From assembly GCA_902798015.1 (NCBI GenBank), contig CADBVL010000005.1:1-46716 (forward strand): DNA of 46,716 bases. The letters run 5' to 3'. The notes beneath the pieces are model-generated. The model searched no databases, was not told the origin of the DNA, and saw only the letters and a program-made list of their open reading frames with translations. The stretch is from an uncultured Bacteroidales bacterium. Lineage in GTDB: Bacteria > Bacteroidota > Bacteroidia > Bacteroidales > Paludibacteraceae. Position numbers and translations under genes: made by a program. Shown piece by piece: positions 960 to 45,772 of the stretch (position 1 is the first letter of the stretch; each line of letters starts with the position of its first letter).

Positions 960-999
960 ATCGAAATATCGAGATATCGAAATCCCGAATCATCGAACA
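960..999. repeat. Five-unit 8-bp tandem repeat between mutS2 and the next gene
   Basis: Units ATCGAAAT (960), ATCGAGAT (968), ATCGAAAT (976), CCCGAATC (984) and ATCGAACA (992) fill nearly the whole 51-bp gap between two genes. The array is degenerate and belongs to the set of short tandem arrays found throughout the window. Confidence 0.75.
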
Positions 1000-1009
1000 A
1001 AATAACAAT

Positions 1010-1723
1010 ATGAAAAAAACACTATTAATTCTTCTCCTGTCGGCCTTGAGTGCGACTTTGAGTGCGGCGAATCCGGGTTTCGGAGACCGCCGTTACAGCG
1101 TGTCAGGCATGGTGGAGTACAGTTACAATAAGACGTGGGGACATCACGCGAATTTTGACATCCAGTCTCTGATGCCCATCAATCTGCATTTCGAGATGGA
1201 AGCACGCTTGCAGTTCTCCACCGCCAATGTACATTCGGGCGCACTTCAGTTACGCCCTAAATTTGAGTTGCCGGTAGGTGAATTGTTTCTTGAAACAGAT
1301 GTCTATTACCGCGCCTTCGCCCGCAACCGCATCGGAGATATAACTGCGGCTCTGGGAGTAGGCTACCGTATGGACTATGTGTCCATTACTTTAGGCGTTT
1401 TCAGTCGGGTGATAGACGATTGGAATCGCTCATGGTACACGGATGAAAGTTTTGTGGTTGAGCCTTTCAACCTATTGTACCGTATTGAAGTCTTCTGCCG
1501 TCCGCAGAACAACAATTGGAACTTGTCGTTTATGTTCAGCAACATTGACGACTATCAGATGGAGCGTATGTGGCAGCCGCTTTTCGGTATTGGTGCTTGG
1601 TACGATATCAATGAGCATTGGCGCTTGAACTTCATGGCGCAATGCAAGCCTACGGGCATGTTCCACCTTGATGCTACGTTCTACGGCGCTACCGGCCGTG
1701 TTGGTTTCACCTATAGATTCTAA
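1010..1723 (+). CDS. Predicted outer-membrane beta-barrel protein, unknown function
   Basis: A 237-residue protein with a clear Sec signal peptide (MKKTLLILLLSALSATLSA). The mature part is a series of short amphipathic strands rich in Tyr, Trp and Phe, and it ends in YRF, the terminal aromatic typical of BAM-assembled barrels. Its size would suit a barrel of roughly 8-10 strands. I do not recognise a named family. It is followed after 5 bp by a lipoprotein phosphoesterase, so the two are probably co-transcribed. No promoter of the TAnnTTTG type was found upstream, so it may be read through from mutS2. Confidence 0.75.
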   Translation: MKKTLLILLLSALSATLSAANPGFGDRRYSVSGMVEYSYNKTWGHHANFDIQSLMPINLHFEMEARLQFSTANVHSGALQLRPKFELPVGELFLETDVYYRAFARNRIGDITAALGVGYRMDYVSITLGVFSRVIDDWNRSWYTDESFVVEPFNLLYRIEVFCRPQNNNWNLSFMFSNIDDYQMERMWQPLFGIGAWYDINEHWRLNFMAQCKPTGMFHLDATFYGATGRVGFTYRF

Positions 1724-1728
1724 ATTGT

Positions 1729-2613
1729 ATGAAAAAGAGTAATTTTTGGATAGTTATAGTGCTTCTATTCGCATCCTGCGCGAATGAAGACAGCACTCTG
1801 GATATGAAAGGCCTGGTTTCTCCCAACGGTCCTACGGTTGCTATCCGTTTTGAGCAGTCAATGGCTTATAACGCCACGCGCGGCGAGATTCACCTGGACA
1901 TGCAGGTGGATGACTATAATATCTATGTATGTACAGATAGTCATATCATGCGCAAGACGCATCGTAACTTGGATTATTTCATTGCGCAATACAGAGCAGA
2001 GACAACTCCGAAACTCGCCCTGCATTTAGGCGATGTGATTGATGCGCAGAAGAACCTTCCATGTGCTGATAGCATCCTGCATTTCCAAGGCCAGACAATC
2101 AAAGACACCGTGTTCGTCACACCCGGCAACCATGATATATACTTCAAACAATGGGATATTTACCGCGATTTTTTCAAGAGTTCCGTCTATTGGTTTGACA
2201 CTCGCAATGGCACAAAGAAACTAGACCTGTTCATTTGCCTGGACAGTGCCGAAGGCGAGTTGGGTGTTGCCCAGATGAACTGGCTACGTACGTTCTTGGA
2301 TGAGAAGTCGAAAGAAGGTTACCGCCGCATCATCGTCTTTAGTCACACGCATCTATGGAAACTGGATGCCTCGCAAGGTCACACATCCAACATGGCATTG
2401 GAGGCGACGTACGAGTTTACGTCCCTGTTGGCACAGTATGGTGTAGAGTGTTATTGGTGCGGCCACCAGCACGCACGCCAATTGGTGCGCTTCAAAGGTG
2501 TGACGTACAGAGTGCTCAATGCTACGAAAGACAGCGAGTTGGGACAGTCGTACATGATCGCTCACATGGGTGAGCATATCACATACGACTATATCGACTA
2601 TCCGAAAGAGTAG
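1729..2613 (+). CDS. Calcineurin-like metallophosphoesterase lipoprotein
   Basis: A 294-residue protein with a lipoprotein signal (LLFASC, Cys17). It carries the full set of metallophosphatase motifs in order: TDSH (Asp70, His72), GDVID (Asp102), GNHD (Asn134-His135), SHTH near residue 206 and GHQH near 246. These bind two metal ions and catalyse phosphoester hydrolysis. The substrate cannot be read from the sequence; periplasmic or surface nucleotides or phospholipids are possible. It follows the barrel protein by 5 bp. Its stop codon directly abuts the stop codon of the convergent LRR gene with no base between them. Confidence 0.85.
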   Translation: MKKSNFWIVIVLLFASCANEDSTLDMKGLVSPNGPTVAIRFEQSMAYNATRGEIHLDMQVDDYNIYVCTDSHIMRKTHRNLDYFIAQYRAETTPKLALHLGDVIDAQKNLPCADSILHFQGQTIKDTVFVTPGNHDIYFKQWDIYRDFFKSSVYWFDTRNGTKKLDLFICLDSAEGELGVAQMNWLRTFLDEKSKEGYRRIIVFSHTHLWKLDASQGHTSNMALEATYEFTSLLAQYGVECYWCGHQHARQLVRFKGVTYRVLNATKDSELGQSYMIAHMGEHITYDYIDYPKE

Positions 2614-4316: not shown

Positions 4317-6381
4317 ATAGAAATTTACGGTTTGACGATTTATGGTTTATCACTTCATCCACGCTCTGCGGCCGGTCTATGTTGAGAAGATACAGAATAG
4401 CGTTCTCAATCAGCTGTTTGCCCTCCTGCGTGAGGAAGGAGGTGGAGTATTCCGATACGCCGATCATCACCAGACGTTGGGGGAGGATAGTGCCATTGCA
4501 ATCCGTTCCGGCAGGCATGTCCGCGATGGTGACACCGTTAGGTTGCGAGACGGGGCTGCCGAGTTGTTCGAAACCCGAAGTGTTCATCCATTCGGAAATC
4601 GCTGTCACGGCATTGGTGCTGCATTTTGAGAAGAGCTGTAACTCAGTGTCAGTGATGGTCAGTCCGCGAAAAAGCGGATGTTCTGGGTTGGTCACTGTGA
4701 CGCTCAGGTCCGCCGTGTTCACCGCCGTGCCCCAATTCCATGCCGAATTCTTGAACAGGAAGGGCTTGAGAACCACCATAGGTTTGTCATAGCCCTTGAG
4801 AGCTGCAAAACCTGCAGCACCACTGTTGGGCTTACTCCCTAATACCAGCACTTCATAGTTGCTGTAATCCACTGTGGGGTCGGTTGCGTCTGTCTCAAAG
4901 ACCCAGAGACTGTCGTTCTCCCTCAGATGTTTGAGTAATGGTTTGTCTTCCGCTGCACCGATAAGGCTGACAAATGCCACCGCGTGGGTGCCTTCAGGCT
5001 GTACGGAAGGAATGGTATCATCCCCTTCAGGTTGGTGCTCTTCGCCAGGGGCCTCGTAGCAACCGATATCGGGCGCATCACCGTTATAGACGAGATGTAC
5101 GTCAATGCCGGCATCAATGAGATCCGAGCCTTCAGCCAAATGCAGGAAAGGACTCTCGGGAAGTTCGCTGTTTCCGTTACGCGGTGCAAGAATCACGGTG
5201 GTGTCCAACGAGAGAAAATCCTCGTCCGTCACGGTGAAACCGTTCCAGCTGTTATGGTCAACCGCCACCACGTTCTGCGATTTGTAACTGTCTTTGTTCT
5301 GACCTTTGTAGGAGAGGCAGTTCTGAATCGTGTTGGTGCCGTAGGCTGTAGTGAAACCATAGTTGGTATAGTTGGCGTATGAGGAGTTGTTGTACAGCCA
5401 CATGGTGCCGCCGTTATTATTCTGGTCGAAGCCGCGGGCATAATTGCCTACCGCATAGCAGTGGTGAATAAACAGTTTATGATCCGTATATTGTCCTCCC
5501 ATCTTGAATCCGTTTCCGTTGCCCTGGCAAGGGTATTTCTCGAGGGTGACGGTGATGGTCTTGCCGTAACGATCCACCATCTGAGTGCCAACTTTGCTGT
5601 CAAACCATGCCTTGTCCACGCCTAACGCCCTCGGGTTTTGACTCATATCGTAATATGGTTGGCCGTTCTGGTAACAGATACAATGTTCGATGATGGAGTT
5701 GGACGTACTGACACGCGCGAAGAAATCCCATCCGTCATCGCTGTTGTTCCAAGCGCGGCAACCGATATAATGGTTTCCCGCCCCGGAGAACTGCTTGTCA
5801 GCAAAACCATCGGCATTGCCTCCGAAGTTGGCGGTCGTACCGGACATGGTCTCATAGTCGAAATTGTCGTGACTGTCCACATTCCGGATGATGTTATTGC
5901 CTCCGTTCTTCATCTGGCAGCCCGTGTCTGCGGAACCGTAGATATCCAGGTTCTCGAAGAGGTTGTAACTGCCTTCGTTATGCAGGTTGTTCTTTCCGGA
6001 ATAGCGCAGCGTAAGATTTTTGATATGTAAGTAGGTTGTGGAACTTTTGACTTGCAGTCCGCGTGTTCCGTATGGCGTAGAGCGGAAATCCAGGATAGCT
6101 GCATACGTGCCACCGCGGGTAATACCTTCGTAGCCGGAGATGACAATGCGTCTTGAGGCACTGCCACTCAGGTTCTGGATGGCCGTATTGCCCAAGTCAT
6201 ATTGACCGCTGAAAAGGTACAGTGTGTCACCAGGGGCACTCAGTTTGCCCAAACCCGATTTGAACGAACAGGGGTTGTTGAACGATCCGTCTCCGGTGCC
6301 GGTAGGCGAAGCATAATAAGTGGCAGCACTCAGACTAATGGATAGCAGCGTAGCTGCGATGAGGGGAAAATAGCGTTTCAT
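4246..6381 (-). CDS. Secreted PL9-family pectate lyase-like protein with amidotransferase-like C-terminal domain
   Basis: The start at 6381 gives a signal peptide (MKRYFPLIAATLLSISLSAA) and a 711-residue protein; its ATG overlaps the stop of the upstream glycosyltransferase (ATGA). Residues about 21-440 form a right-handed beta-helix of polysaccharide lyase family 9. The residues known in PelL are present: NADGF (Asp191) and DDGWDFF (Asp215, Asp216, Asp219) for calcium, and NGFKMGG (Lys293) as catalytic base. After a Pro/Glu-rich linker, residues about 465-640 resemble a class I glutamine-amidotransferase-like fold without an obvious catalytic triad. The protein ends in a short tail (YDGKLFIEASGVVYDATGRR) similar to that of the protein at 29815-31158. 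It probably cleaves pectin outside the cell. A lyase at the end of a glycan-synthesis run is odd. Confidence 0.85.
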   Translation of the reverse strand: MKRYFPLIAATLLSISLSAATYYASPTGTGDGSFNNPCSFKSGLGKLSAPGDTLYLFSGQYDLGNTAIQNLSGSASRRIVISGYEGITRGGTYAAILDFRSTPYGTRGLQVKSSTTYLHIKNLTLRYSGKNNLHNEGSYNLFENLDIYGSADTGCQMKNGGNNIIRNVDSHDNFDYETMSGTTANFGGNADGFADKQFSGAGNHYIGCRAWNNSDDGWDFFARVSTSNSIIEHCICYQNGQPYYDMSQNPRALGVDKAWFDSKVGTQMVDRYGKTITVTLEKYPCQGNGNGFKMGGQYTDHKLFIHHCYAVGNYARGFDQNNNGGTMWLYNNSSYANYTNYGFTTAYGTNTIQNCLSYKGQNKDSYKSQNVVAVDHNSWNGFTVTDEDFLSLDTTVILAPRNGNSELPESPFLHLAEGSDLIDAGIDVHLVYNGDAPDIGCYEAPGEEHQPEGDDTIPSVQPEGTHAVAFVSLIGAAEDKPLLKHLRENDSLWVFETDATDPTVDYSNYEVLVLGSKPNSGAAGFAALKGYDKPMVVLKPFLFKNSAWNWGTAVNTADLSVTVTNPEHPLFRGLTITDTELQLFSKCSTNAVTAISEWMNTSGFEQLGSPVSQPNGVTIADMPAGTDCNGTILPQRLVMIGVSEYSTSFLTQEGKQLIENAILYLLNIDRPQSVDEVINHKSSNRKFLYDGKLFIEASGVVYDATGRRMAR
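4323..4350. repeat. Four-unit heptamer array inside the PL9 gene
   Basis: Units ATTTACG, GTTTGAC, GATTTAT and GGTTTAT, read in frame on the minus strand as VINHKSSNRKF. The peptide VINHKS also occurs at the heptamer array inside the MFS gene. The array lies just before the conserved C-terminal tail. Confidence 0.6.
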
Positions 6382-7070: not shown

Positions 7071-8154
7071 ATTGTGCTTCTCGTGCAAATGTTTCTCTAT
7101 GTCGGGTCGCCTGACGCGTAAATCCCTTCTGTTGCCATTCCTCGTAGCGTTCACGGATGAAAGTTTTGATGGTGTCTATATCATCCGTCGCAATGCCGGC
7201 ATGGGTGTATTTAATAAGTTCTGCCAACGCGCCTTTGTCGGACGGCACGCACAGGATGGGTTTCTCGCATCCCAAGGCTTCATAGAACTTCGTGGTCAGC
7301 ATCCCATGAGTGCGCTCGTTAGTGAGCACCAAAAGAATACTGCTGCGGCGAATGGCATCACCCAAAGCGTCGTGGGGCAGGGTGTTTTGCGTCGGGGTGT
7401 GAAGTGCTAAACGGATGGGCAGTCCTAACTCGTTTATAGCCTGTCTTACTAAGTTCAATCCTGCTTCCTGCCATCCGAAGAGCGTACCGATATACGAGAC
7501 AGTAAACTGCTCTAAAGATATGTCTTGCGGGTAGAATTGCACCGCATCGTAGCCGTTATAGACCACATGAACGTGCGGATTGAGCGGCCGGATGAAGTCT
7601 GCATGCCACGGAGAGACAGTAGTTATTTCCTGCGCTGCGCGCAAGACTTTGTTACGTCTTCGGATATGAATGGCGCGGTAAATACGGCGGAAGGGCATAG
7701 TCCACCATGTACGGTGATGATATTGGTACGTCGAGTCCTCCACTTGTTCGTCCAGGTCGCGAATATCGCAATACAAGGGCACGTTCAGCGCGCGTGCTAT
7801 CCGATGTGCCGCGCCTAAAGGAAAATCGCTGAAGGCAGAACAGAGGACGATGTCAAAGGATCGGCGGTTGACGGTCTTCAGAAACCTGTTCGCAAAAACT
7901 CTGTTATGCCAGTCGGTGAACAATGTCCAGATTGTTTTTACAGCCCAGTCGAAGGTACCGCCGTTATACATACGGATGGTTTCGATCGGATAGGAGTGAT
8001 CAAATGCCAAGTCGCTATATTCTTCAGTCAACAGCGTCACAACATACCCTTTCCGCACGAGGTATTCGCACAAGAAACGCACGCGGGGTAAATAACCCGG
8101 GGCGGCCGGAGGGTCGGAGACCACAAGAATATTCAAGACCTTATCCTTTGCCAT
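7042..8154 (-). CDS. Family 4 (GT-B) glycosyltransferase
   Basis: A 370-residue protein with GT-B architecture: an N-terminal acceptor domain (ILVVSDPPAAPGYLPRVRFL) and a C-terminal donor domain with VSYIGTLFGWQ, LLVLTNERTHGMLTTKFYEA and GCEKPILCVP, where the glutamate of KFYEALG is the conserved sugar-nucleotide contact. It probably adds a sugar to a surface-glycan intermediate. It overlaps the deacetylase-like gene by 14 bp and the GT2 gene by 29 bp. Confidence 0.88.
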   Translation of the reverse strand: MAKDKVLNILVVSDPPAAPGYLPRVRFLCEYLVRKGYVVTLLTEEYSDLAFDHSYPIETIRMYNGGTFDWAVKTIWTLFTDWHNRVFANRFLKTVNRRSFDIVLCSAFSDFPLGAAHRIARALNVPLYCDIRDLDEQVEDSTYQYHHRTWWTMPFRRIYRAIHIRRRNKVLRAAQEITTVSPWHADFIRPLNPHVHVVYNGYDAVQFYPQDISLEQFTVSYIGTLFGWQEAGLNLVRQAINELGLPIRLALHTPTQNTLPHDALGDAIRRSSILLVLTNERTHGMLTTKFYEALGCEKPILCVPSDKGALAELIKYTHAGIATDDIDTIKTFIRERYEEWQQKGFTRQATRHRETFAREAQYDQYYSTHL

Positions 8155-9295
8155 TTAACAATTGGAGGACTTTGGGGTATAACGTCCGATGGTATGTCTC
8201 ATCGTTGATGTTGCTGTTGTGCCATAACAGGCAGAGGTCGCCGTGGTGCATTTGTACCTTTTCGATCAGTCGTTCGCAAAGGAAATACGCCTCGTCTTCC
8301 GTGAGGTTCATATAATTGGCCTGACTGAGGGTGTTGTCCATAATCATCAAGGGATGCAAAGTAAGACGGGTTAACTGCATCGTTATGGGATTGATCCACC
8401 GCACAGCACGGCATGTCTGCAAACGAAAACCGGCCTGATCGGCAAAACCCATCGTGAAATCATCCGTGTAGCCGGCGTCCACCAGACGTTGCATGTGTTC
8501 GATGGAACTGCGAAGGTAATGGGCGCGGAACATTTTGCTATATTGAATCTTCGGTATGTCCCCGTAATAACTGCCGTGCACGCCGAGATAGACGTTGTTA
8601 TGACGCAACATATGTTTCAGATGCTTGAAGTCCCGTCCCCATAAGCAGTATTGCGGATAGTCATAACCACGTCCTTTGGTTCGCTTGACGAAATAGATGG
8701 TGTCAGCATGTTTCACTTTCGCATCTTGTTCGAGCAGCCAAGGGAAGGTGTATAGCGGGTCGTGGTGGATAGAACGCAAGGCGTTCAGCACGGCTTTGAA
8801 TTCACCTCTACGGATACCGCCTAACGCACCGCGCAACGAGCGGTATTGCGTGATAGCATCGATGTCGTGTGTGAGATAGATATGCCCGAAACCGGGTTCA
8901 GGTAACGGTAGATCCAGTTGTTTGAGGACCAATCGGGCGTACTCGTCCAAACGCGGAATCTGCAAACGGCTCTTCTCATTCAGAATAGAATATTTGGCGG
9001 CAAAGCGGCCGTGCTCGTCGCGTTGGGTGTTCACCAATTCCTCCGCACGGGATGTGAAGAAGAAAACGGCATAAACGATGTCCGTGCGAATGATGGTCTT
9101 GCCTTTTGCCGGCTCCTCTACCACAGGGCGTTTCAGTTCCGGAACAACCAGCTCTTTCCCCATTAAACCATTGGGAACAATAATCACATCGTGATCTTTT
9201 AGCGCCTGCTCGTCTGCGGTGTATGCTACACGTTGCGCTGCTTCTTCGTCGCCGTAACACAGCCACGTCAGAATATATTCAATAATCTCTTTCAT
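8141..9295 (-). CDS. Polysaccharide deacetylase-like (NodB-related) protein
   Basis: A 384-residue protein without signal peptide. An N-terminal alpha/beta region (1-130) precedes a catalytic-type domain starting at YLTHDID (His143, Asp144, Asp146). It continues with HGSYYG near residue 240 and TMGFADQAGFR. This arrangement is common in Bacteroidota glycan loci and is annotated there as a polysaccharide deacetylase family protein. The HDxD motif would bind a metal and remove N- or O-acetyl groups. It lies between the ABC-F gene and the GT4 gene, which it overlaps by 14 bp. The activity is inferred only. Confidence 0.75.
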   Translation of the reverse strand: MKEIIEYILTWLCYGDEEAAQRVAYTADEQALKDHDVIIVPNGLMGKELVVPELKRPVVEEPAKGKTIIRTDIVYAVFFFTSRAEELVNTQRDEHGRFAAKYSILNEKSRLQIPRLDEYARLVLKQLDLPLPEPGFGHIYLTHDIDAITQYRSLRGALGGIRRGEFKAVLNALRSIHHDPLYTFPWLLEQDAKVKHADTIYFVKRTKGRGYDYPQYCLWGRDFKHLKHMLRHNNVYLGVHGSYYGDIPKIQYSKMFRAHYLRSSIEHMQRLVDAGYTDDFTMGFADQAGFRLQTCRAVRWINPITMQLTRLTLHPLMIMDNTLSQANYMNLTEDEAYFLCERLIEKVQMHHGDLCLLWHNSNINDETYHRTLYPKVLQLLNGKG

Positions 9296-9330
9296 TTTCG
9301 CCTTTCACTTTTTCACCTTTCAATTCTCAC
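9296..9330. repeat. Degenerate 7-9 bp tandem array before the deacetylase-like gene
   Basis: Repeated TTTCGCC, TTTCACT, TTTTCACC and TTTCAATT fill the 24-bp gap between the ABC-F stop (9320) and the next start (9295), running into the end of ABC-F. Confidence 0.5.
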
Positions 9331-9573
9331 TAAGTATTTCCCATTCGTACATTTTCTGTTCTATCTGGTGCTTGATTGTTTCGTATTTCTGGAAATTCTC
9401 TTGCGTTTGGTTTTCCGGCATCGCTAACACTTGTTCCATCTCTGCTTGCTTTTCTTCGAGGACCGCAATCTCATTTTCAACTTCCGCAATCTGTTTTTCT
9501 TTTTTGCGTTTTTCGGCAGCTGCGGCTTTCTGTGCGGCATAATCCAGAGCCCCGGACTGGTTAGACCCTGGCT

Positions 9574-9606
9574 TTGACTGTCGGTTGACCGTCGGCTGAC
9601 CGTCGG
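9574..9606. repeat. Three-unit 11-bp tandem repeat in the ABC-F C-terminal linker
   Basis: Units TTGACTGTCGG (9574), TTGACCGTCGG (9585) and CTGACCGTCGG (9596). The minus-strand reading is in frame (TDGQPTVNRQSKPG), in the linker before the C-terminal coiled coil. Confidence 0.8.
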
Positions 9607-9953
9607 TGAGAGGTAGTTTTTGCCTTATTTCCAACTCTGTGAGGTTAGTCATCTTTTTCGCACGGAGGAAATCGTATATTCCGCCGAGGTGTTCTTTGAC
9701 TATTCCTCCGCCGAACTCATAGACTTTGCTAACGAGTCCGTTCAGGAAATCGCGGTCGTGACTGACGCATATTAGGGTGCCGTTAAAGTCCTGCAGTGCA
9801 TTTTTGAGCACATCTTTGGACTGCATGTCCAGGTGGTTGGTGGGCTCATCGAGGATGAGTACATTACAAGGCTCGAGTAACAATCGTATCATAGCCAGAC
9901 GGCTTCGTTCTCCTCCGCTGAGCACTTTTACTTTCTTGTCAGATGCTTCGCCG

Positions 9954-9975
9954 CCGAACATAAACCGAACATAAA
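9954..9975. repeat. Exact 11-bp tandem duplication (frameshift cause)
   Basis: CCGAACATAAA at 9954-9964 is repeated without change at 9965-9975. One copy restores the ABC-F frame; two copies shift it. The unit has the same 11-bp length as the repeat at 9574 in this gene and the one at 22118, but a different sequence. Confidence 0.95.
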
Positions 9976-11149
9976 CGCCCCCAAGATGTCCCGTATCTTT
10001 GTCCGGATGTCTCCTACGGCGACATAGTCAATGGTCTCAAACACCGTATTTTCTTCGTCTAATAGCGCAGCTTGGTTCTGGGCAAAATAGCCAATCTTGA
10101 CATTATGCCCGATTTTGAGGGTTCCAAAATAATCCAGTTGCCCCATGATACATTTGACGAGTGTCGATTTACCTTCGCCGTTTTTTCCTACGAATGCCAC
10201 TTTTTCGCCGCGCCGGATAGTAAAAGTGACATCGTGAAAGACCGTGTGCTCCCCAAAGTCTTTGCGCAAATCCTCTACTATCAGCGGGAAGTCTCCGCTA
10301 CGCGGGGCAGGCGGGAAACGCAAGTTCAGTTTACTGGTGTCTTCCAGGTCCACTTCGAGACGTTCCAGTTTCTCCAGTTGCTTGATACGACTCTGTACCT
10401 GTACGGCTTTGGTCGCTTTGTAGCGGAAACGCTCAATGAACTCCTCCGTGTCCTGAATCATCTTCTGCTGGTTCTGGTACGCTCTTACCTGTTGCTCGTG
10501 CCTTTCTTTGCGTAACTCCACAAAGCGGCTATAATTAACATTGTAATCATAAATTCGTCCTAAAGTGATCTCAATTGTCCGACCGCACACATTATCAATA
10601 AACGCCCTGTCGTGACTCACCATCAACACCGCGCTCTGACTGCTTTTGAGGAAGTCCTCCAACCACTGAATGGACTCGATATCCAGGTGGTTTGTCGGCT
10701 CGTCGAGTAATAGCAGATCCGGATGCCTCAAGAGGATCTTCGCCAACTCGATACGCATTCTCCATCCGCCGGAGAACTCCGAACACGGACGCTCAAAATC
10801 CTTGCGCTCAAAACCCAGACCGATGATCGTCCGGTCCATCTCGGCAATGAAGCGGGCATCATTTCCGTCGTCCTCTAATCCTTTATGCCCTTCATTTTTT
10901 ATTGTCATGACCTCTTCGCGTAAGGTCCTGTCATCATGGAAAAGCATGACTTGCGGCAGGTATCCGATCGTCATATCCGCTTCCCGGGCGATTCGTCCGC
11001 TTGTCGGCTGATATTCTCCTGCGATCAGACGCAACAGGGTTGTTTTGCCGGCACCGTTCTTACCCACCAATGCCACGCGCTCCTTGCGATTGATAAGGAA
11101 CGTAATGTCGTCCAACACGGGACGGGCGGAGAACTCCATACTTACATGA

Positions 11150-12226
11150 TCAATGGTCAGCATGCGTAAGAACGATTTGATGGTTAATAACTCTCCAAAG
11201 GAGCAGTGTCAATATAGTGGCAAAACCGAAGTCGGTCAATAACAGTAACCAATTACTCCAATTCCTTCCGATGATTCCAATCCCGATAAATAGCACACTT
11301 GCACTCAGCAACACGCAAGTCGTCTGTATATGATTCAACCCCGTGCGCAACAACAGATGATGAATATGATTCTTATCCGGTTCGAAGAGCGGCCTGCGCT
11401 GCTTGAGACGCGTCAGGCTGACACGGACGGCGTCGAATAACGGCACGGTCAACACACAAACCGCCACTGCCGGTGCTGCATTCATGTGGAGTGTTTCCGA
11501 GACAATATGGTACGCATTGATCTCGCAGAAATGGAAGATAAACGCCGTCAGCAAGTAACCTAACAACAAACTCCCCGAATCGCCCATAAAGATCTTATCC
11601 CGTTTGCCGAATACGTTGTAAATGAAGAAGACCGCCAGTACACCAATCATGCCGATGGCCATATTGGACCAAACTGTTTCGCCCGCCAAGCCAAAATAAA
11701 TCGCGAAAAAGAGGCAGTACAAAATCCCCAAACCGCTGGCCAATCCGTCAATGCCGTCAATGAGATTGATTGCATTGATGACGGTCAAAAGGACAGCGAA
11801 CGATACGAGATAACTCGGAATAATTCCTATTTCCTCGATGCCGAACAAGCCATGCAGGTGGGTGAGGCGAATGTCGGCAAAACCGATAAGGGCAATGCCG
11901 GCCAATGTTTCACCCAGTAGTTTTGCAGTAGGCCGTAACACCAATACATCGTCTGTAAAACCGACCACCATGATGACAAATAATCCAATCAGGAAAAACG
12001 GCGGCTGCTCTATCGGAGTGCATAGCAGGTATGTCAACATAAACGAGAAGCATATATTCAATCCGCCGATATTAGGCACCTCGCCGTCATGACTCATTCG
12101 CTTGTTCGGCCGCACGACAAAACCTTTTGTCTTTGCTACGCGGATGACCACAGGCATAAACAAGGCGCCGAATATAAAACTCAGCAAACCAATCAGATAA
12201 CTATGTGCTATCAGCGCGTTTTGCAT
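11150..12226 (-). CDS. WecA/TagO-like undecaprenyl-phosphate sugar-1-phosphate transferase
   Basis: A 358-residue multi-pass membrane protein of the MraY/WecA family. Conserved motifs: NIGGLNI near the N-terminus, GFTDDVLVLRP, NLIDGIDGLASG, the catalytic-loop FMGDSGSLLLGY, and NHIHHLLLRTGL, the histidine-rich loop that marks WecA rather than MraY. It loads a sugar-1-phosphate from a UDP-sugar onto undecaprenyl phosphate at the inner membrane, the first step of surface-glycan synthesis. Its start overlaps the stop of the CapD-like gene by one base (TAATG), and its end overlaps the ABC-F start by 14 bp. Confidence 0.9.
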   Translation of the reverse strand: MQNALIAHSYLIGLLSFIFGALFMPVVIRVAKTKGFVVRPNKRMSHDGEVPNIGGLNICFSFMLTYLLCTPIEQPPFFLIGLFVIMVVGFTDDVLVLRPTAKLLGETLAGIALIGFADIRLTHLHGLFGIEEIGIIPSYLVSFAVLLTVINAINLIDGIDGLASGLGILYCLFFAIYFGLAGETVWSNMAIGMIGVLAVFFIYNVFGKRDKIFMGDSGSLLLGYLLTAFIFHFCEINAYHIVSETLHMNAAPAVAVCVLTVPLFDAVRVSLTRLKQRRPLFEPDKNHIHHLLLRTGLNHIQTTCVLLSASVLFIGIGIIGRNWSNWLLLLTDFGFATILTLLLWRVINHQIVLTHADH

Positions 12227-21987: not shown

Positions 21988-22049
21988 ATTATGTGTTTTT
22001 CCTTTCTTCCTTTCAACTATCTACTTTCAACTCTCAACTAATTTCGGCA

Positions 22050-22080: not shown

Positions 22081-22117
22081 GAGTTTGTGCTTTTTTTATG
22101 AAAATATGCTGTATTTT

Positions 22118-22172
22118 ATCAGAGGTATATCAGAGGTATATCAGAGGTAAGTCAGAGTTAAATCAGAGTTAT
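22118..22172. repeat. Five-unit 11-bp tandem repeat between divergent promoters
   Basis: ATCAGAGGTAT twice (22118, 22129), ATCAGAGGTAA (22140), GTCAGAGTTAA (22151) and ATCAGAGTTAT (22162). Eleven bases is about one helical turn, so each unit faces the same side of the DNA. It lies upstream of both the recQ and MFS promoters, in the 362-bp gap 21988-22349. Confidence 0.9.
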
Positions 22173-22176
22173 ATCG

Positions 22177-27700: not shown

Positions 27701-27936
27701 ATAGTATTACCGATCGTTTCTTGGAGAACGCTTCCTTCCTCCGTTGTGATAACATCACGCTCGGTTATTCCTTCCAGAAGAACAAAATTTCCGGACGTGC
27801 CTTCTGCACCGTTTCGAACCCCTTCGTGATTACCAAGTACTCGGGTCTGGATCCGGAAGTTGGTCTCGGCGGTGTGGATAACTCCATTTACCCGCGTTCG
27901 ATGACGACCATCCTGGGTATTAACCTGCAATTCTAA
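24718..27936 (+). CDS. SusC-like TonB-dependent outer-membrane transporter
   Basis: A 1,072-residue protein: signal peptide (LLLMLGTAAAVAQ), a carboxypeptidase-D-like domain (about 27-100: SGTVIDAANGEPIIGASI), a TonB-box-like stretch (LDEVVVVGYG), a plug domain (IRIRGGSSLNASNDPLIIID, GSRASNGVILITTKKG) and a large beta-barrel ending in NLQF. It imports oligosaccharides across the outer membrane using TonB energy. There is no N-terminal signalling extension, so control by a linked anti-sigma factor is not expected. The susD gene follows after 30 bp. Confidence 0.96.
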   Translation: MKNFNIFRTISLALLLMLGTAAAVAQTASGTVIDAANGEPIIGASILEIGTTNGTITDFDGNFTLNVQPGAKLAISYMGYKSQELAAAPGMAVKLAEDTEVLDEVVVVGYGVVKKNDATGSVTAIKPDEMNKGLVTNAQDMLQGKIAGVNIATSGGSPGEGAAIRIRGGSSLNASNDPLIIIDGLAMDNNGIQGVSNPLSLVNPSDIETFTVLKDASATAIYGSRASNGVILITTKKGKSGQKLRVNYDGNVSFGSVLKHMDVLNADELRAYATASGQSHQANAYLMNDNIDWFSQIYRTAVSTDHNVSLTGGFKDKNVDMPYRASVGYTLNNGAVKGSQMQRVTASLNLSPSFLDNHLMFNLNAKGMYIYTKYEPGIANAYLDKDPTEPIYATGDLTNIYGEPLVAGTVNDQTYYVTQDELNAHWDGFFQPIAVSSSAYGAFGDPNWMYYLKGGSNPLAQLKHQSNSSNAGSFVGNLEATYKVHTLEDLVFHANFGADYSFGKQEESNNMLGTASHYYGWNKTEQKMKYNLLFNCYAQYGHDWEEAQQHFDVMAAYEWQHFYNNYEGWGWGWYQPTYAEDPTKAGQKANAFTSTGCGENYLVSFFGRVNYIGWNQLMVTATLRGDGSSRFAPGHRWGIFPAVAVGWKIKETLLKDVHWINDLKLRLGYGITGQQEGIGDYDYLPTYSQTTGHTSYYPVGGDNYATENYDAVTVDKVTDKDGYDLFISDRPNAYNWNLTWEKTTTYNVGIDYAFLNNRISGALEYYFRNTTDLLNDVKVPLGTNFRTRVRSNVGSLQNQGIEFSVNAVILDYGKRFKWDFGYNVTWNQNKITNLNGEDTMIDGSGYAGGGLGGKSITKYAVGYALNTFYLYEARKGTRDDGSQYWYIIDQNQDNKIDEQDKVFKHNPVAPVTMGFQMKFQFYGFDLGMSFRANIGNYIFNNVVASRLQTVPAGSLGQNGYYNTLPKSVFNTYYADGYNTQIWNTDGTSIMGNADYSITDRFLENASFLRCDNITLGYSFQKNKISGRAFCTVSNPFVITKYSGLDPEVGLGGVDNSIYPRSMTTILGINLQF

Positions 27937-27940
27937 TAAC

Positions 27941-27961
27941 ATCGTAAATCATAAATCATAT
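27941..27961. repeat. Three-unit heptamer array between susC and susD
   Basis: ATCGTAA, ATCATAA and ATCATAT occupy most of the 30-bp spacer, directly ahead of the susD start, where a ribosome would bind. Confidence 0.7.
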
Positions 27962-31232: not shown

Positions 31233-33701
31233 TTATTTACATAAAATATAGTTTCCTTTTGCGCCTTTTCGAATAATAAACGTGCATTGGCCTGCAAAAG
31301 CGTGCATTTGCGGCTCAACGAAAGAGTCTAAACAAGCAGCGTCGCCATTTGCGGCTGCTACAAAACCGTCACCTTCGTAGCAAATAAGATTATTGGCATT
31401 CGGACAAAGGTTACCGTTCCTATCAACTACTTTTACCGTCATGTAGCATAGTTCTTCTGGGTTTTCCTTCTCATTGGCCCAAATAACTTCCAAATGATCC
31501 GGCTCTCCGGCGGTGCGAATAGTCTCGCGTGCAGCCTCTTTGCCCTTCTCGTCATAAGCAACGACAGTAATTTCTCCTTCTTCAAACGGAATATCAAACC
31601 ACATCAATCGGTAGCGCGGTAATAACTCCGGTCTTGGCGCACTGCCCCAAACAGGCACTTCAAAATCACCTACTTTCGGCATCGCACTTATGCCTTCGAT
31701 CGTTTCGCCTTTCGCCAGACGCTCTGTCTCTTCGGGCGTTGCAAAGCGTAACTTGCCGTAACTCTTTCCGTTCACAAACAACTCAGCGCTCGGATAACTC
31801 GTATAGCAGAAGACCGGCACTAAGTCGCCTTCATTCCAGTTCCAGTGCGGCAGCACGTGTAAAGTCGGCTCTTTCTTGTTCCACTGGCTGCGATACAACC
31901 AAAATCTGTCTTTCGGCAGCGAAGCCAGATCAATGATGCCGAAATAACTGCTGTGACTTGGCCAAGCGTCCGTGTCATACGGAGAGGGCTCGCCCAAGTA
32001 GTCAAAACCCGTCCAAACGAACTGGCCTAAAGTCCAGGTATAATCGTCTTGCAGCTGAAAATCCTGTTCCGGCAGCCCTGACCATGCGCAATACTCCACG
32101 TCATAACCGGAAGATTGATTGTCGGGATACTTGGCGTCCGGCTGGATGACCGCAGGCGTCTTATATACACCGCGACTGGAGACGGTGGACGCTGTTTCAG
32201 AACCCAAAATCATCTTTTGCGGCAGGTTCTCGTATCCCTCTATATAACGACTCGTGCGATAATTGAAGCCCGGCAACTCTACGGCTGCACCGAATCCGTT
32301 ATGAATGACATGCATCGCCTGATCCATTCCGTTGGTAACAGGGCGGGTGGGATCGAGTTGATGGAAAAGGTCTTGTAGTTTTGTTACAATCTCAATGCCG
32401 TCCGGCAGCACTTGATTCCATACTTCATTACCGCTGGACCACAGCATCACACAGGCATTGTTGCGGTAATGCTTGACCATATTCGTAACATCCCATTTCC
32501 ACCAATCGTTGAAATCCTTATTATAGTCATTCTCCGTCTTGCCCCAGTTCCATACGTCGAACGGCTCGATCATCATCATCATGCCCATCTCGTCGCACAA
32601 CTCCACGAGTTCAGGCGCAGGCATGTTATGACTCGTGCGAATCGCATCGCAACCCATGTCTTTCAGCATCGCAATTTGGTGACGCAGCGCATCTTTATGA
32701 ACCGCCGCGCCGAGCGGACCTAAGTCATGGTGGTTGCAGACACCCTTGAACTTACGTGTTTCGCCGTTCAACTGAAAACCATGCTCCGGCGTATAGGATA
32801 ATGCGCGAATACCGAAACGTGTGTTGACTTCGTCAAGTATCTCTGATTTCTGATACACTCGTGTACGTGCAGTATATAAATATGGTGTCTCAGGACTCCA
32901 TAAATGCGGATTCCGCACTTCGGCTACGCCCTGTTGCCCTTCCGCTGACGCGACAACCTTACCCTTATACAGAATATCCGTCTGAATATGAAGCCCTTCG
33001 TTCGTTAACTCGTTCATTCGTTCACTCGTTAACTCCTCTACACCGTCCTGCAACTCTACATCGATGGTTATTTGCGCGAACTCCTTGCTCACTTTCGGCG
33101 TACGAATAAGCACGCCGAAGGTAGGAATATGAATAGGGTCGGTTTCTACAAGGTGAACATTGCGGTATAAACCTGCACCCGGATACCAACGGCTCTGTTG
33201 CGGCTTGTTCTCTAAAAAGACATCAATATCTACGCTGTCGCTTGTGATGAGTTGTGGCAGAATATAGCAATCGAAGGTGTTGTAGCCATAAGGCCAATAG
33301 ACCATTTCTTCGCCGTTCACATAGACGTCCGCGTGACTCATCGCGCCGTCGAAAACGAGGGTATAGAACTTGTCTTTCTTCACTTTCACGCGTGTGCGGT
33401 AGTGCCCCTTACCCATCCAGGGCAATCCTCCGCTACGACCGGTTTTCCAGGTCGGTTCTTTCTCGCCGTTCTGCACTACAATCACTTCCTGCAGATCGTT
33501 CTCGCGGTCAAAAGGACCGCTGATGGCCCAGTCATGCGGGATAGTGACGTCCTGCCATGTCGGGTTGTCGGTCGTGTCTTGCGTGAACTGCCATTGACGG
33601 AGTAAAGTGTCCGTGCGAACAGCTTGCTCTCCTGTACAAGCATAAAACACCATGCTACTGATCAGCAGCATGGCGTATAGGATATTGCACTTACCTTTCA
33701 T
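31233..33701 (-). CDS. GH2 beta-galactosidase, exported
   Basis: An 822-residue glycoside hydrolase family 2 enzyme. The N-terminus has a signal with Cys22 (MVFYAC), probably a lipoprotein, although the lipobox is loose. A sugar-binding jelly roll (WQDVTIPHDWAISGPF), immunoglobulin-like domains and a TIM barrel follow. The acid/base is Glu426 (SSGNEVW) and the nucleophile Glu502 (LGSETAS). It cleaves beta-galactosides, releasing galactose for GalM and GalK encoded upstream. An octamer array (33003-33034) adds ELTSERMNELT at residues 223-233. The start lies 24 bp after galM, and that gap is mostly a heptamer array. GH2 also includes other activities, so lactose as substrate is not proven. Confidence 0.9.
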   Translation of the reverse strand: MKGKCNILYAMLLISSMVFYACTGEQAVRTDTLLRQWQFTQDTTDNPTWQDVTIPHDWAISGPFDRENDLQEVIVVQNGEKEPTWKTGRSGGLPWMGKGHYRTRVKVKKDKFYTLVFDGAMSHADVYVNGEEMVYWPYGYNTFDCYILPQLITSDSVDIDVFLENKPQQSRWYPGAGLYRNVHLVETDPIHIPTFGVLIRTPKVSKEFAQITIDVELQDGVEELTSERMNELTNEGLHIQTDILYKGKVVASAEGQQGVAEVRNPHLWSPETPYLYTARTRVYQKSEILDEVNTRFGIRALSYTPEHGFQLNGETRKFKGVCNHHDLGPLGAAVHKDALRHQIAMLKDMGCDAIRTSHNMPAPELVELCDEMGMMMMIEPFDVWNWGKTENDYNKDFNDWWKWDVTNMVKHYRNNACVMLWSSGNEVWNQVLPDGIEIVTKLQDLFHQLDPTRPVTNGMDQAMHVIHNGFGAAVELPGFNYRTSRYIEGYENLPQKMILGSETASTVSSRGVYKTPAVIQPDAKYPDNQSSGYDVEYCAWSGLPEQDFQLQDDYTWTLGQFVWTGFDYLGEPSPYDTDAWPSHSSYFGIIDLASLPKDRFWLYRSQWNKKEPTLHVLPHWNWNEGDLVPVFCYTSYPSAELFVNGKSYGKLRFATPEETERLAKGETIEGISAMPKVGDFEVPVWGSAPRPELLPRYRLMWFDIPFEEGEITVVAYDEKGKEAARETIRTAGEPDHLEVIWANEKENPEELCYMTVKVVDRNGNLCPNANNLICYEGDGFVAAANGDAACLDSFVEPQMHAFAGQCTFIIRKGAKGNYILCK
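33003..33034. repeat. Four-unit 8-bp tandem repeat inside lacZ
   Basis: CGTTAACT, CGTTCATT, CGTTCACT and CGTTAACT, read in frame on the minus strand as ELTSERMNELT in a domain linker. Further partial units (TTCGTTC) precede it at 32997. Confidence 0.85.
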
Positions 33702-36969: not shown

Positions 36970-37601
36970 TGACCGCAGAAGAGAGAGCCAACACTTGGAC
37001 ACATCTGATTGCTTTTGTGGCTACGCTTTTCATAGCGTGGCCACTTCTTCATTTAGCCTACCGCTCTCAACTTTCAACTTTCAACTTTCAACTTATAGGC
37101 ACTTCTCTTTTCCTGTTCGGTATGCTTCTCATGTATGGCTCCTCCACGCTGTACCATGCCGTCTCTGCGCCGGAGCACAAGCGTCGCCTGCGGGTACTGG
37201 ACCATAGCGCAATATACGTGATGATAGCCGGATCCTATTCGCCTATATGCCTCTCCGTGATTGGAGGATGGGTGGGATGGAGCCTTTTCATTTTCCTGTG
37301 GGCCTGCGTGATTGCCGGTGTGATTGGGAAAGTGATAGCCTTAGGCAAATATCCGCGTCTGTCGCTTCTCCTCTATCTGATGATGGGATGGGTGGCTTTG
37401 CTGGTGCTGGTCCCTATGTGGCGTAACATGCCGCATGAGGCCTTCTGGTATATAATAACCGAGGGCATTTGTTATACCCTCGGTTCCTATTTCTTCCGCT
37501 TGGATGAAGAGCACGCTTTCTATCATGCTATTTGGCATGTGTTCATCATCCTCGGTTCAGCAGCGCATACGATCGCTACATGGATCATCCTGGCGGCTTG
37601 A
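36969..37601 (+). CDS. TrhA/hemolysin III (YqfA) family membrane protein
   Basis: A 210-residue protein with about seven membrane helices, related to the PAQR receptors. Family motifs: an N-terminal EERANTWTHLIAF, GSSTLYHAV, LDHSAIYVMIAGSYSPI and the C-terminal FYHAIWHVFIILGSAAHTIA, which hold the Ser, Asp and His residues that bind zinc in PAQR proteins. The proposed role in bacteria is membrane-lipid homeostasis or a lipid hydrolase. The loop after helix 1 carries SQLSTFNFQL, encoded by a four-unit heptamer array. Confidence 0.88.
   Translation: MTAEERANTWTHLIAFVATLFIAWPLLHLAYRSQLSTFNFQLIGTSLFLFGMLLMYGSSTLYHAVSAPEHKRRLRVLDHSAIYVMIAGSYSPICLSVIGGWVGWSLFIFLWACVIAGVIGKVIALGKYPRLSLLLYLMMGWVALLVLVPMWRNMPHEAFWYIITEGICYTLGSYFFRLDEEHAFYHAIWHVFIILGSAAHTIATWIILAA
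37065..37092. repeat. Four-unit heptamer array inside the trhA-like gene
   Basis: TCTCAAC once, then TTTCAAC three times, exact. It is read in frame as SQLSTFNFQL between helices 1 and 2. The unit is like those at 22033, 33717 and 18355. Confidence 0.9.
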
Positions 37602-41364: not shown

Positions 41365-41401
41365 TCATTGTTACTCGCACAACGGTGCGAACGTAAGTTC
41401 G

Positions 41402-41569: not shown

Positions 41570-41629
41570 TGCGGTTTTTTGAGAAAACCGAACAAACAAA
41601 CGTATAACAAACAATCTTTTTTGAATAGT

Positions 41630-42832
41630 ATGCAGAAGAAAATTTTTACTCTTGCGTTGGCCTTGATGGCCGCGCTTACTATGACTGCTCAAAATGTAGA
41701 TAAGGCGACGGTGACGGCCAATGCTGAGGCGGCTGCGAAGGCGGGCGCCGACCTTCAGAAGTTGGAGCAGGCAGAGAAGGCATGGAAATTTGACGGTACC
41801 GTCGGACTCAATGCAGCTGCTACCGGGTTGGTGAACTGGGCTGCCGGTGGTAAGAACAATGTCAACGGCATCGCGTATGCCAAACTTCACCTCTTGTATC
41901 ATAAAAATGCCATCGCTTGGGAGACTAATTTCGATACCGACTTCGGATTGACTTGGATTCAGCAGAAAGAGGACCCCTTCCAGAAGTCTAGCGATAATAT
42001 CAAACTCGCTACCAAATTTGGATGGGAGTTCAAGCAGAACTGGTATCTCACCGTGCTCGGTTCGTTCCAGAGCCAATATGCGCTTGGTCGCAATTATCAG
42101 GATGGGTACAATCCGATTATCTCGAAGTGGCTGGCTCCGTCGCATACGGACATCTCTGTAGGTATCGATTGGAAGAAAAGCTATAAGGGTGCTGACTTCT
42201 CCATCTATCTGTCGCCGATAGCAGGCCGTATCACTACGGCATACATAGGCAACACATGGAATGAGCGCTATACGAAAGAGATGTGGCTGGCTGCAGATCC
42301 AACTCGTACAGAGGCTGACTGGACGCCTGCCGTATATCAGGAACTTATGAATACGCATCAGGACTTGCGCAGTGAATTGCAAGACCTGAACGGTACGATC
42401 AGGTACGACCAGCAGGGTAACATGGTGTACAGCAATGCCCGTATTGAGATGGGTTTGAGTTTTAAGGGCGGTATCGCCTATACCTACAAGGACCTCAAAC
42501 TCAGTACGACCTTGGCGCTCTTCTCCCCGTATCAGGGAAAAGGCTTTAATGTGAAGGACGCATGGTTAGCCGATAATCCCGGTAAGACTGAGGCGGATTT
42601 CTGGGCAGCGGGCTATTACTTCGAGTGGTCGAACAACAACCGTTACTTTGGTATGTTCGATGTGGACTGGGATGTAGCGCTGAGTTACCAGTTCCTCAAA
42701 TGCCTGCAGGTGACGCTGCAAACCAGCCTCAAGTACTATCCGGGTACGCTGGTGGCAGATCAAGAAGGCGTATTGGCAGAGCGCTGCCAGTTCAAAGGCG
42801 TCATCGGTATTGGTGTAGGCTATAGCTTCTGA
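41630..42832 (+). CDS. DUF3078 outer-membrane protein
   Basis: The start at 41630 (MQKKIFTLALALMAALTMTA then QNVDKA) gives a signal peptide and a 400-residue protein; an upstream in-frame ATG at 41546 lies ahead of the predicted transcription start. The sequence (AWKFDGTVGLNAAATGLVNW, AAGGKNNVNGIAYAKLHLLY, WETNFDTDFGLTWIQ) is typical of the Bacteroidota family DUF3078, thought to be an outer-membrane barrel, and it ends in GYSF. Function unknown. It has its own promoter and may start the transcript that continues through zapB-like, zapA and rny. Its stop codon lies inside a heptamer array. Confidence 0.88.
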   Translation: MQKKIFTLALALMAALTMTAQNVDKATVTANAEAAAKAGADLQKLEQAEKAWKFDGTVGLNAAATGLVNWAAGGKNNVNGIAYAKLHLLYHKNAIAWETNFDTDFGLTWIQQKEDPFQKSSDNIKLATKFGWEFKQNWYLTVLGSFQSQYALGRNYQDGYNPIISKWLAPSHTDISVGIDWKKSYKGADFSIYLSPIAGRITTAYIGNTWNERYTKEMWLAADPTRTEADWTPAVYQELMNTHQDLRSELQDLNGTIRYDQQGNMVYSNARIEMGLSFKGGIAYTYKDLKLSTTLALFSPYQGKGFNVKDAWLADNPGKTEADFWAAGYYFEWSNNNRYFGMFDVDWDVALSYQFLKCLQVTLQTSLKYYPGTLVADQEGVLAERCQFKGVIGIGVGYSF

Positions 42833-42882
42833 TTTCTGATTTCTAATTTCTGATTTCTGACATCTGATTTCTGACTTCTGAC
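42827..42882. repeat. Eight-unit heptamer array between DUF3078 and zapB-like genes
   Basis: Eight consecutive 7-bp units: TTCTGAT, TTCTGAT, TTCTAAT, TTCTGAT, TTCTGAC, ATCTGAT, TTCTGAC, TTCTGAC. It is the longest array in the window. It begins within the last codons of the DUF3078 gene, provides its TGA stop and fills the spacer to 42890. Confidence 0.95.
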
Positions 42883-42889
42883 CTCCCCT

Positions 42890-43165: not shown

Positions 43166-43170
43166 TTTCT

Positions 43171-43458: not shown

Positions 43459-43499
43459 TACCGAAAAAAATAACTTAATTTTTTTAAAACGATAAATCA

Positions 43500-45029: not shown

Positions 45030-45030
45030 A

Positions 45031-45058
45031 GTTTAGAGTTTAGAGTTTAGGGTTTAGA
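45031..45058. repeat. Four-unit heptamer array at the rny / trmN6 convergent junction
   Basis: GTTTAGA, GTTTAGA, GTTTAGG and GTTTAGA, starting 1 bp after the rny stop. The minus-strand stop codon of the methyltransferase gene (45056-45054) lies in the last unit. Confidence 0.9.
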
Positions 45059-45752
45059 GGTAAAACTCTTGACAGAGTTTCGAATAGGCGGCTGAACGGC
45101 CGCCTTTTTCGTCCTCCAGAACGAGCGTGTCCTCCTCTAATCCACTAACCTCTAATCCACTAACCCCTTTCACAAAAGCCAAAAGGACTCTTTTGGGCTT
45201 TTTGTTCTCCTTAGAATAAACGCGCGTCACGCGCGTGAGGGAGAGCCGTTCCGCGGCGGCGAGACCGCGCACTTCTTTTTCGGACTCGGCAGGCAGGATC
45301 AGTGCCAACACACCGTCTTCTTCGAGCAGCCGCGCGCTATGCTTGATTAGTTCCGCATAACTCAGTGTGTCCGTATGTCGCGCCGTCTGACGACCTTTGT
45401 CGGGGTTCTTAAGACTATTCTGAAAATAGGGTGGGTTAGAGACAATCAAGTCATATTGGTATCCGGGATTCCAGTCTTGTAGTCGGGATAAATAAATATC
45501 TCCCTTCCCTTCACCTTTTACATTCTCCCTTGCTTGCTCTACCGCCGCCTCGTCGATGTCGATCCCTTCTACCTCCGCTTCGGGAAAACGCTGCATCAGC
45601 ATCCGGGCTATCAGTCCGCTGCCCGTCCCGACATCCAATATCCGGGTTAGGGGATTAGTGGGCGCCCATGCCCCTAACAGCACGCCGTCGGTTCCTACCT
45701 TCATGGCGCACTTACTATCCTCAATATAAAACTGCTTGAACCGAAACGACAT
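45054..45752 (-). CDS. TrmN6-like tRNA1(Val) adenine-N6 methyltransferase
   Basis: A 232-residue SAM-dependent methyltransferase. Family features: N-terminal FRFKQFYIEDSKCAMKVGTD, the SAM loop ILDVGTGSGLIARML and the catalytic NPPY of N6-adenine methyltransferases (LIVSNPPYFQNSL). It is predicted to methylate A37 of tRNA-Val. Low-complexity peptides APTNPLTR and GVSGLEVSGLEEDT are encoded by TTAGTGG/ATTAGAGG-type repeats. The ATG overlaps the stop of the upstream permease gene by one base. The 3' end of the gene carries the rny terminator on the opposite strand. Confidence 0.88.
   Translation of the reverse strand: MSFRFKQFYIEDSKCAMKVGTDGVLLGAWAPTNPLTRILDVGTGSGLIARMLMQRFPEAEVEGIDIDEAAVEQARENVKGEGKGDIYLSRLQDWNPGYQYDLIVSNPPYFQNSLKNPDKGRQTARHTDTLSYAELIKHSARLLEEDGVLALILPAESEKEVRGLAAAERLSLTRVTRVYSKENKKPKRVLLAFVKGVSGLEVSGLEEDTLVLEDEKGGRSAAYSKLCQEFYL
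45086..45109 (+). terminator. Intrinsic terminator for rny inside the convergent gene
   Basis: Stem GGCGGC (45087-45092) with GCCGCC (45099-45104), 6-nt loop, then five T (45105-45109). It lies within the last codons of the methyltransferase gene. A smaller hairpin, AAACTC-TTGACA-GAGTTT, precedes it at 45063-45080. Confidence 0.8.
45134..45163. repeat. Exact 15-bp tandem duplication inside the methyltransferase gene
   Basis: CCTCTAATCCACTAA at 45134-45148 is repeated unchanged at 45149-45163, adding five residues in frame (VSGLE twice). A related stretch, GGTTAGGGGATTAGTGGG, lies at 45645-45662 in the same gene. Confidence 0.92.
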
Positions 45753-45772
45753 TAATTCTTAATTCTTAATTC
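45752..45772. repeat. Three-unit heptamer array at the permease / methyltransferase junction
   Basis: TTAATTC three times, exact. On the minus strand it encodes the last residues of the permease (ELRIKN) and its stop, and runs into the methyltransferase start. Confidence 0.88.

Follow-up and report, generated by a model that had tools for sequence, protein, structure and literature searches.

Short tandem arrays with units of 7, 8 and 11 bp in uncultured Paludibacteraceae: evidence for duplication, slippage and copying within genomes

Short tandem arrays, predominantly with units of 7, 8 and 11 bp, are abundant in a genus of uncultured Paludibacteraceae. We conclude that they probably reflect fast, largely neutral turnover by duplication, homogenization through slippage, and copying to other sites, with the products filtered by reading frame. 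The starting point was the window, a stretch of 46,716 nt (contig C5) belonging to a Paludibacteraceae MAG of 1.95 Mb with 85% completeness. Related MAGs are mainly ruminant-derived. Comparison of RNase Y places the window among uncultured Bacteroidales/Paludibacteraceae MAGs; among the matches listed, the nearest RNase Y loci are those of RUG372 and a goat reticulum MAG (97% identity). The window encodes recQ, a susC/susD pair, galactokinase, aldose epimerase, a GH2 enzyme, HlyIII and RNase Y.

Tandem Repeats Finder (TRF), at a score of at least 30, detected an array at 15 of the 16 positions listed in a preliminary description of this DNA (Table 1); no array was detected at position 4323 with that threshold. 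That description proposed a comparison with shuffled sequence, and the comparison reveals a clear excess: arrays of period 7, 8 and 11 are nearly missing from shuffles. For periods of 7–16 bp and a score of at least 40, there are 14 arrays in the window, versus a mean of 0.43 (maximum 2) for 30 block dinucleotide shuffles and a mean of 1.03 (maximum 5) for 30 codon shuffles within ORFs. At a score of at least 30, there are 27 arrays, versus shuffle means of 4.83 (dinucleotide) and 6.60 (codon). Hence, the lowest-scoring listed arrays, at 9296, 22011, 23047 and 27941 (scores of 31–35, although 9296 also scores 47 as period 15), are each near chance and not significant singly. An additional 399,543 bases of the same genome contain 35, 11 and 13 segments of period 7, 8 and 11, respectively, versus 0, 0 and 1 after shuffling (one shuffle per locus; four for the window), and no segments of period 4, 5, 6, 10 or 13. 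Based on TRF coordinates and ORFs, nine of the 15 listed arrays are in spacers or span gene ends, and six are within ORFs, in line with the earlier estimate that about half are in spacers. Six arrays touch a stop codon.

Table 1. Tandem arrays in the window, with their placement and Tandem Repeats Finder (TRF) scores.
Feature	Coordinates	Strand	Placement	Context	TRF score
8-bp array (ATCGAAAT)	960..983		spacer or gene end	spacer preceding ORF 1010-1723	41
mixed 7/8-bp array	9289..9330		spacer or gene end; touches stop codon	end of ORF 9320-9961 and start of ORF 8141-9295	31-47; weak alone
11-bp array TTGACCGTCGG	9574..9607		within ORF	ABC-F C-terminal ORF	54
perfect 11-bp tandem duplication	9954..9976	-		ABC-F frame break	46 (100% match)
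7-bp array CTCTCAA/CTCTAAA	18359..18404		within ORF	RimO-like ORF, TRAM region	34, 46
7-bp array	21999..22040		spacer or gene end	spacer upstream of recQ	32, 35; weak
11-bp array TATCAGAGGTA, 5.4 copies	22117..22175		spacer or gene end	upstream of recQ	83
7-bp array TCATAAA	23059..23074		within ORF	MFS transporter ORF	32; weak
7-bp array	27936..27960		spacer or gene end; touches stop codon	susC-susD spacer, starts at susC stop	34; weak
8/16-bp array	32997..33035		within ORF	GH2 ORF	47, 54
7-bp array CTTTAAA	33702..33727		spacer or gene end; touches stop codon	between aldose epimerase and GH2 genes, over epimerase stop	45
TCAACTT x4	37067..37094	+	within ORF	HlyIII gene	56
TTCTGAT x7.9	42827..42881		spacer or gene end; touches stop codon	DUF3078 stop into next spacer	82
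AGTTTAG x4.3	45030..45059		spacer or gene end; touches stop codon	past RNase Y stop, up to methyltransferase stop	53
15-bp array, unit of 8+7	45134..45165		within ORF	TrmN6-like methyltransferase ORF	64
TTAATTC x3	45752..45772		spacer or gene end; touches stop codon	methyltransferase start and end of ORF 45752-46483	42

Arrays of this kind also occur in other genomes of the genus. In five deeply sampled genomes (G000, G034, G011, G015 and G005), the favoured periods are 7, 8 and 11, and multiples thereof. Heptamers are the most abundant class in G000, G034 and G015 (41, 12 and 16; 83, 22 and 12; and 107, 30 and 15 segments of period 7, 8 and 11, respectively) but not in G011 (8, 21 and 42) or G005 (20, 2 and 33), where period 11 leads; shuffles yield 0–1. 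Counts for periods 4, 5 and 13 stay at 0–3. For the remaining periods, in the order of genomes given above, the counts are 0, 1, 2, 3 and 3 (period 6), 4, 9, 0, 8 and 3 (period 9), 0, 6, 1, 10 and 0 (period 10), and 4, 9, 1, 6 and 4 (period 12). The density of period-7, -8 and -11 arrays is 0.15–0.38 per kb in these five genomes but only 0.015 per kb (4 arrays in 271 kb) in other Bacteroidales families, represented by the first contig from each of 20 genomes, of which 18 were used. Thus, for the contigs sampled, the density exceeds that of other Bacteroidales, a second comparison proposed at the outset. Rows with no more than 200 unmasked bases were dropped (L221 and L222 of G005; L146 and L149 of the other families). 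Furthermore, array density drops with distance among the RNase Y loci that we retrieved: there are 119, 42 and 28 segments of period 7, 8 and 11 in 33 loci with at least 90% identity, 30, 4 and 22 in 28 loci with 76–86% identity, and 18, 4 and 3 in 19 loci with 72–76% identity. Three units of TCAACTT (up to one mismatch) were found in 24 of 41 genomes of the genus, and in 51 of 393 genomes and 45 of 206 genera of the order; the reversed-pattern control for these searches carries no information, as TCAACTT read backwards is a rotated form of the same heptamer. The 11-bp unit TTGACCGTCGG (array 9574..9607) is also present in locus L158 of G034.

We propose that head-to-tail duplication of a short stretch gives birth to an array; the favoured unit lengths of 7, 8 and 11 bp are seen as the period spectrum. 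In the window, a perfect 11-bp duplication in the ABC-F gene coincides with a break between two ORFs. All 14 same-genus relatives examined have a single copy at this site, and open frames of 594–689 aa. An assembly error could account for this duplication. Exact two-copy duplications of period 11 number 7, 6, 22, 4, 22 and 16 in six samples, as compared to 0, 4, 0, 5, 1 and 1 for period 10, 1, 4, 1, 4, 2 and 1 for period 12, and none in any of the six for period 13; these counts include some pieces of longer imperfect arrays. The peak at 11 is clear in four of the six samples, but G034 (6) and G015 (4) have no sharp peak, and duplications of period 9 are also raised (10, 12, 4, 13, 13 and 15, versus 3, 4, 1, 1, 1 and 1 for shuffled sequence). 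In addition, G034 and G015 hold 6 and 10 segments of period 10, respectively. Hence, the step preference is not clean. A stretch of ~7 nt has been proposed to contact the polymerase, an idea relayed in sections of PMC4679880 and PMC4692102. Conceivably, a lineage-specific polymerase, or an annealing or template-switching activity, with steps of 7–8 and 11 nt, makes and spreads the micro-arrays as a selfish micro-satellite system with unit families particular to each genome, but we regard this as doubtful.

Arrays occupy the same sites in relatives but with different units. Arrays of 7, 8 and 15 bp occur within the genes for HlyIII and a TrmN6-like methyltransferase. In HlyIII, arrays of unlike units occupy identical codons, without a shift of register, in several species: TCAACTT in the window, AATCACA in L112, CAAATTT in L122, and CAATCTG/CAATCAT in L113, with mixed units in L111 and, weakly, in L123. 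Among 18 same-genus genomes, including that of the window, a period-7 segment (score of at least 7) is found in six, a trace is found in one (L110), and none is found in 11. Loops that carry arrays do not differ from one another in length, and a few of the remaining loops are ~4 residues shorter or one longer. In the methyltransferase, four loops differ in length while remaining in frame, and arrays are found at three of them; relatives have 7-bp arrays, 8-bp arrays or no array at the site of the 15-bp array in the window. Thus, as the preliminary description suggested should be checked, arrays are present, missing or altered between relatives at both genes.

Closer comparisons reveal changes in unit number. 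L031 and L032 share 94.5% identity across 12.9 kb of aligned sequence. Nine of 15 arrays in L031 have both flanks in L032, and five of these nine differ in length or content. The coding array in the methyltransferase is 35 bp long in L031 and 56 bp in L032, a difference of 21 bp that keeps the frame. For L038 and L058, the array difference is 7 bp. The 45752 site of the window has other units, CGTCAAT-like and TTAATTA, in L031 and L032. We propose that units are gained, lost and homogenized by slippage: unit number changes between relatives, and homogenization would account for unlike units in the same register. Every genome analysed is a draft, which leaves some room for the arrays being assembly artefacts of metagenome bins. 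Nonetheless, we consider this explanation highly improbable, since one or more segments of period 7, 8 or 11 are present in 32 of the 33 nearest (same-genus) loci, which come from separate records, and since the 21-bp difference in the methyltransferase preserves the frame.

Is local template slippage, occurring at each site on its own and with its products filtered by reading frame, sufficient to explain the arrays? This was the view of the preliminary description. It is consistent with the differences in unit number between close relatives, and with the single 11-bp duplication in the ABC-F gene. It is also consistent with the HlyIII array of G026, where a three-unit CAAATTT pattern (up to one mismatch) is found in HlyIII and nowhere else in the genome; the reversed-pattern control for this search is another genuine heptamer. 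Hence, the HlyIII array of G026 looks local rather than copied, ruling out ectopic copying as the sole cause at HlyIII. However, units are shared between sites more often within genomes than between genomes at all three periods (12.2% versus 5.5% for period 7, 23.1% versus 1.0% for period 8, and 5.1% versus 0.4% for period 11; none of 200 permutations gave values as large). Moreover, for 55 of 464 arrays, an imperfect 28-bp core, with variant units in order, is exactly repeated elsewhere in the sample of its own genome, whereas none of the 464 has an exact core match in the four other genome samples. By genome, the numbers are 2 of 69, 17 of 117, 11 of 71, 13 of 152 and 12 of 55; the first is the window's own genome, where evidence of copying by this strict test is thin, as slippage alone would predict. 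The other 409 arrays have no exact variant-bearing copy within their sample. Overall, we think it unlikely that slippage alone accounts for the arrays. The parts of the earlier view concerning slippage at many sites and filtering by reading frame stand, but its claim that this is not a dispersed family spread by copying is not supported.

Individual cases illustrate the copying. In G005, the unit order CTTATACTCAT-CCTATACTCAT-CGTATACTC is found at two sites with unlike flanks. Matching blocks around arrays are up to 209 bp long, on both strands, and vary in extent from case to case; the search extended no further than 250 bp from an array. In the window's genome, many contigs carry arrays of TCAACTT and TTCTGAT, with three-unit TTCTGAT matches (up to two mismatches) on nine contigs besides that of the window. 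The data show that blocks of ~30–200 bp that carry arrays are copied, in both orientations, to other positions of the genome in which they reside; template switching or ectopic gene conversion is the probable mechanism. Recurrence is also seen for 28-mers from spacer sequence at a distance from arrays (0.3–3.8%), indicating that copying is not special to arrays; it may act on spacers generally.

Units of the same period share weak consensus letters and form fewer clusters than shuffled letters. The log-likelihoods of the consensus for 7-, 8- and 11-bp units are 119.4, 102.7 and 96.2, versus 21.3, 27.7 and 35.3 for shuffled letters. The weak consensus and smaller number of clusters could reflect common ancestry or a common template. 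Since the variants of a unit within a family lack independence, we do not take the likelihood as proof of a common degenerate consensus for each period.

Alternatively, the dispersal could be that of non-autonomous mobile repeats, with a transposase, RAYT-like or otherwise, moving them. The occurrence of block copies in both orientations is consistent with such movement. Nonetheless, it seems improbable: the extent of the shared blocks varies case by case, and Y1_Tnp, the sole transposase family covered, has no match in any of the five deeply sampled genomes, leading us to reject dispersal by RAYT. Across 41 genomes of the genus, Y1_Tnp matches are above the cut-off in 12, and have E values of at most 0.001 in 16. 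We also rejected loss of mismatch repair as a cause, since 40 of the 41 genomes have a MutS_V match, and the exception is a 54% complete MAG. The match has an E value of at most 1e-80 in 37 genomes, including the five deeply sampled, and is weaker or partial in G026, G031 and G064.

What is the functional significance of the arrays? They could be functional elements: binding sites, translation signals near gene starts, as has been proposed for TAACTGA repeats, or stop signals in multiple frames. The contact of six window arrays with stop codons is consistent with such a role, as is the precedent in Beggiatoaceae described in sections of PMC4679880. In addition, 5 of 12 clusters of 8-bp units have stops on both strands, versus 2.6 (sd 1.0) for shuffled letters. 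In contrast, stops on at least one strand are not enriched (26 of 36, 9 of 12 and 25 of 30 unit clusters, versus 25.4, 8.2 and 23.0 for shuffled letters), which argues against a stop-codon signal, and the unit sequence at a given site is unlike between relatives. Based on crude gene calls, and excluding 115 junction and 24 edge arrays, convergent, divergent and tandem spacers hold 1.11, 1.19 and 1.18 arrays per kb, respectively, and ORFs hold ~0.10 per kb. This equal density across spacer types gives no indication of a regulatory role, and we rejected a role as promoters or terminators on the same grounds. Genes were called as the longest ORFs, omitting loci with at least 1000 N; starts are over-extended and 90–94% of bases are called as coding, such that coding and junction counts are rough, including the 128 of 259 period-7 arrays inside ORFs. 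Taken together, a function as signals appears quite improbable. In our view, duplication, slippage and copying give rise to the arrays as by-products, and these are tolerated. Selection would mostly clear arrays that break proteins, such that those remaining would be concentrated in spacers, around the ends of genes and in stop-free protein loops, and no regulatory role would be required.

The arrays belong with known heptamer, LSSR and STRR repeats, but copying and rapid turnover are unusually clear here. The LSSR described by Mrazek (2007), as summarized in part of PMC4679880, have units of 5–11 nt beyond chance, with heptamers as the leading class and, within coding sequence, a preference for unit lengths divisible by three; slippage was invoked to explain them. 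Tandem units of 5–11 nt above chance are also present here; in contrast to LSSR, two of the five genomes have more 11-mers than 7-mers, and arrays recur as exact copies at other sites of a genome. Our arrays resemble STRR of filamentous cyanobacteria by description, these being given in the relevant section of PMC2670836 as usually 7-bp repeats with no known function. In the preliminary description, no named equivalent was recognized in Bacteroidota, yet sections of MacGregor (2015; PMC4679880) describe heptamer arrays in five Bacteroidetes, including Paludibacter propionicigenes. These TAACTGA arrays are 7 bp in period, mostly in spacers and patchy in Bacteroidetes, including Paludibacter; those of two Cyanothece strains differ mainly by 7-nt steps, and in BOGUAY the repeats are near start codons, mostly a short way upstream and oriented forward. 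The arrays that we describe are likewise 7-bp tandem arrays, but the TAACTGA system, as presented there, has one unit, near BOGUAY starts, whereas here there are many units, no favoured spacer type, and many arrays in ORFs. According to part of PMC4692102, GGGNATC heptamers of Xanthomonas and Nostoc are found genome-wide and form arrays that similarly vary in length and sequence; comparison of two closely related species places most of these arrays between the same genes. However, GGGNATC is a single G-rich, quadruplex-forming unit, and the units here are A/T-rich and diverse. No tandem TAACTGA or GGGNATC was found on either strand in the samples of the five genomes or at any of the 33 same-genus loci. 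In a tree-of-life survey of STRs, the portion of PMC12699852 considered here reports enrichment of a subset with 6–9-bp units in prokaryotic phyla, and a high repeat density in Bacteroidota; that survey covers units of up to 9 bp, whereas we also observe 11-bp units and copying between sites. Within a limited literature collection, we found nothing on tandem repeats in Paludibacteraceae or heptanucleotide tandem repeats in Bacteroides, and only MacGregor (2015) on intergenic heptanucleotide repeats in Bacteroidetes.

The genus speaks to the question of how bacterial heptamer arrays spread, for which the sections of MacGregor (2015; PMC4679880) cited above report no evident transfer mechanism. 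Turnover is fast, sites are fixed with known flanks, certain unit lengths are favoured, and unit sets differ between sister species. Hence, birth, slippage and copying are separately measurable. Since arrays lengthen loops in frame, as in the methyltransferase, and can break genes, as in ABC-F, they are also a source of protein variation. In-frame repeats, such as QLSTFNFQL of HlyIII, are to be expected when annotating genes of MAGs in this genus. Among other ORFs with arrays in the window, the 110-aa ORF that overlaps the array at 22117..22175 has no Pfam match, and the TRAM_2 match of the RimO-like ORF covers residues 431–503 against a 63-position profile.

The preferred array period varies among genomes of one genus: arrays with 11-bp units predominate in G011 and G005, and arrays with 7-bp units in G000 (the genome of the window), G015 and G034. 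Across 18 contigs from other Bacteroidales families, we counted eight segments of period 10, versus one in shuffled controls. Four of the eight are in contig L154, and the others in contigs L135, L138, L140 and L143. On the basis of these segments, the preferred step in the other families is perhaps different from that in the genus.

Two open reading frames in the window derive from one ABC-F ATPase gene, which is split at a perfect 11-bp tandem duplication. At the duplication site, a single 11-bp copy is found in all 14 of the same-genus relatives examined.

G011 contains a larger dispersed element built from two 11-bp arrays and the spacer that its copies share. The copies in L178 and L188 have 189 bp in common, at 83%. 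The same genome has a perfect array of ~12 copies of the 8-bp unit TGAGGAGA. In G026, another genus genome, the stronger match to the mismatch-repair profile MutS_V is broken into two parts that lie in separate open frames.

Coordinates of individual features
Feature	Genome	Position
ABC-F ATPase gene	G000	window 9320-11163 (-)
Paired-array element	G011	L178:14340-14730
Paired-array element	G011	L188:6800-7080
Paired-array element	G011	L176:14600-14960
8-bp array	G011	L176:789-888
MutS_V match	G026	contig C17:38161-38726
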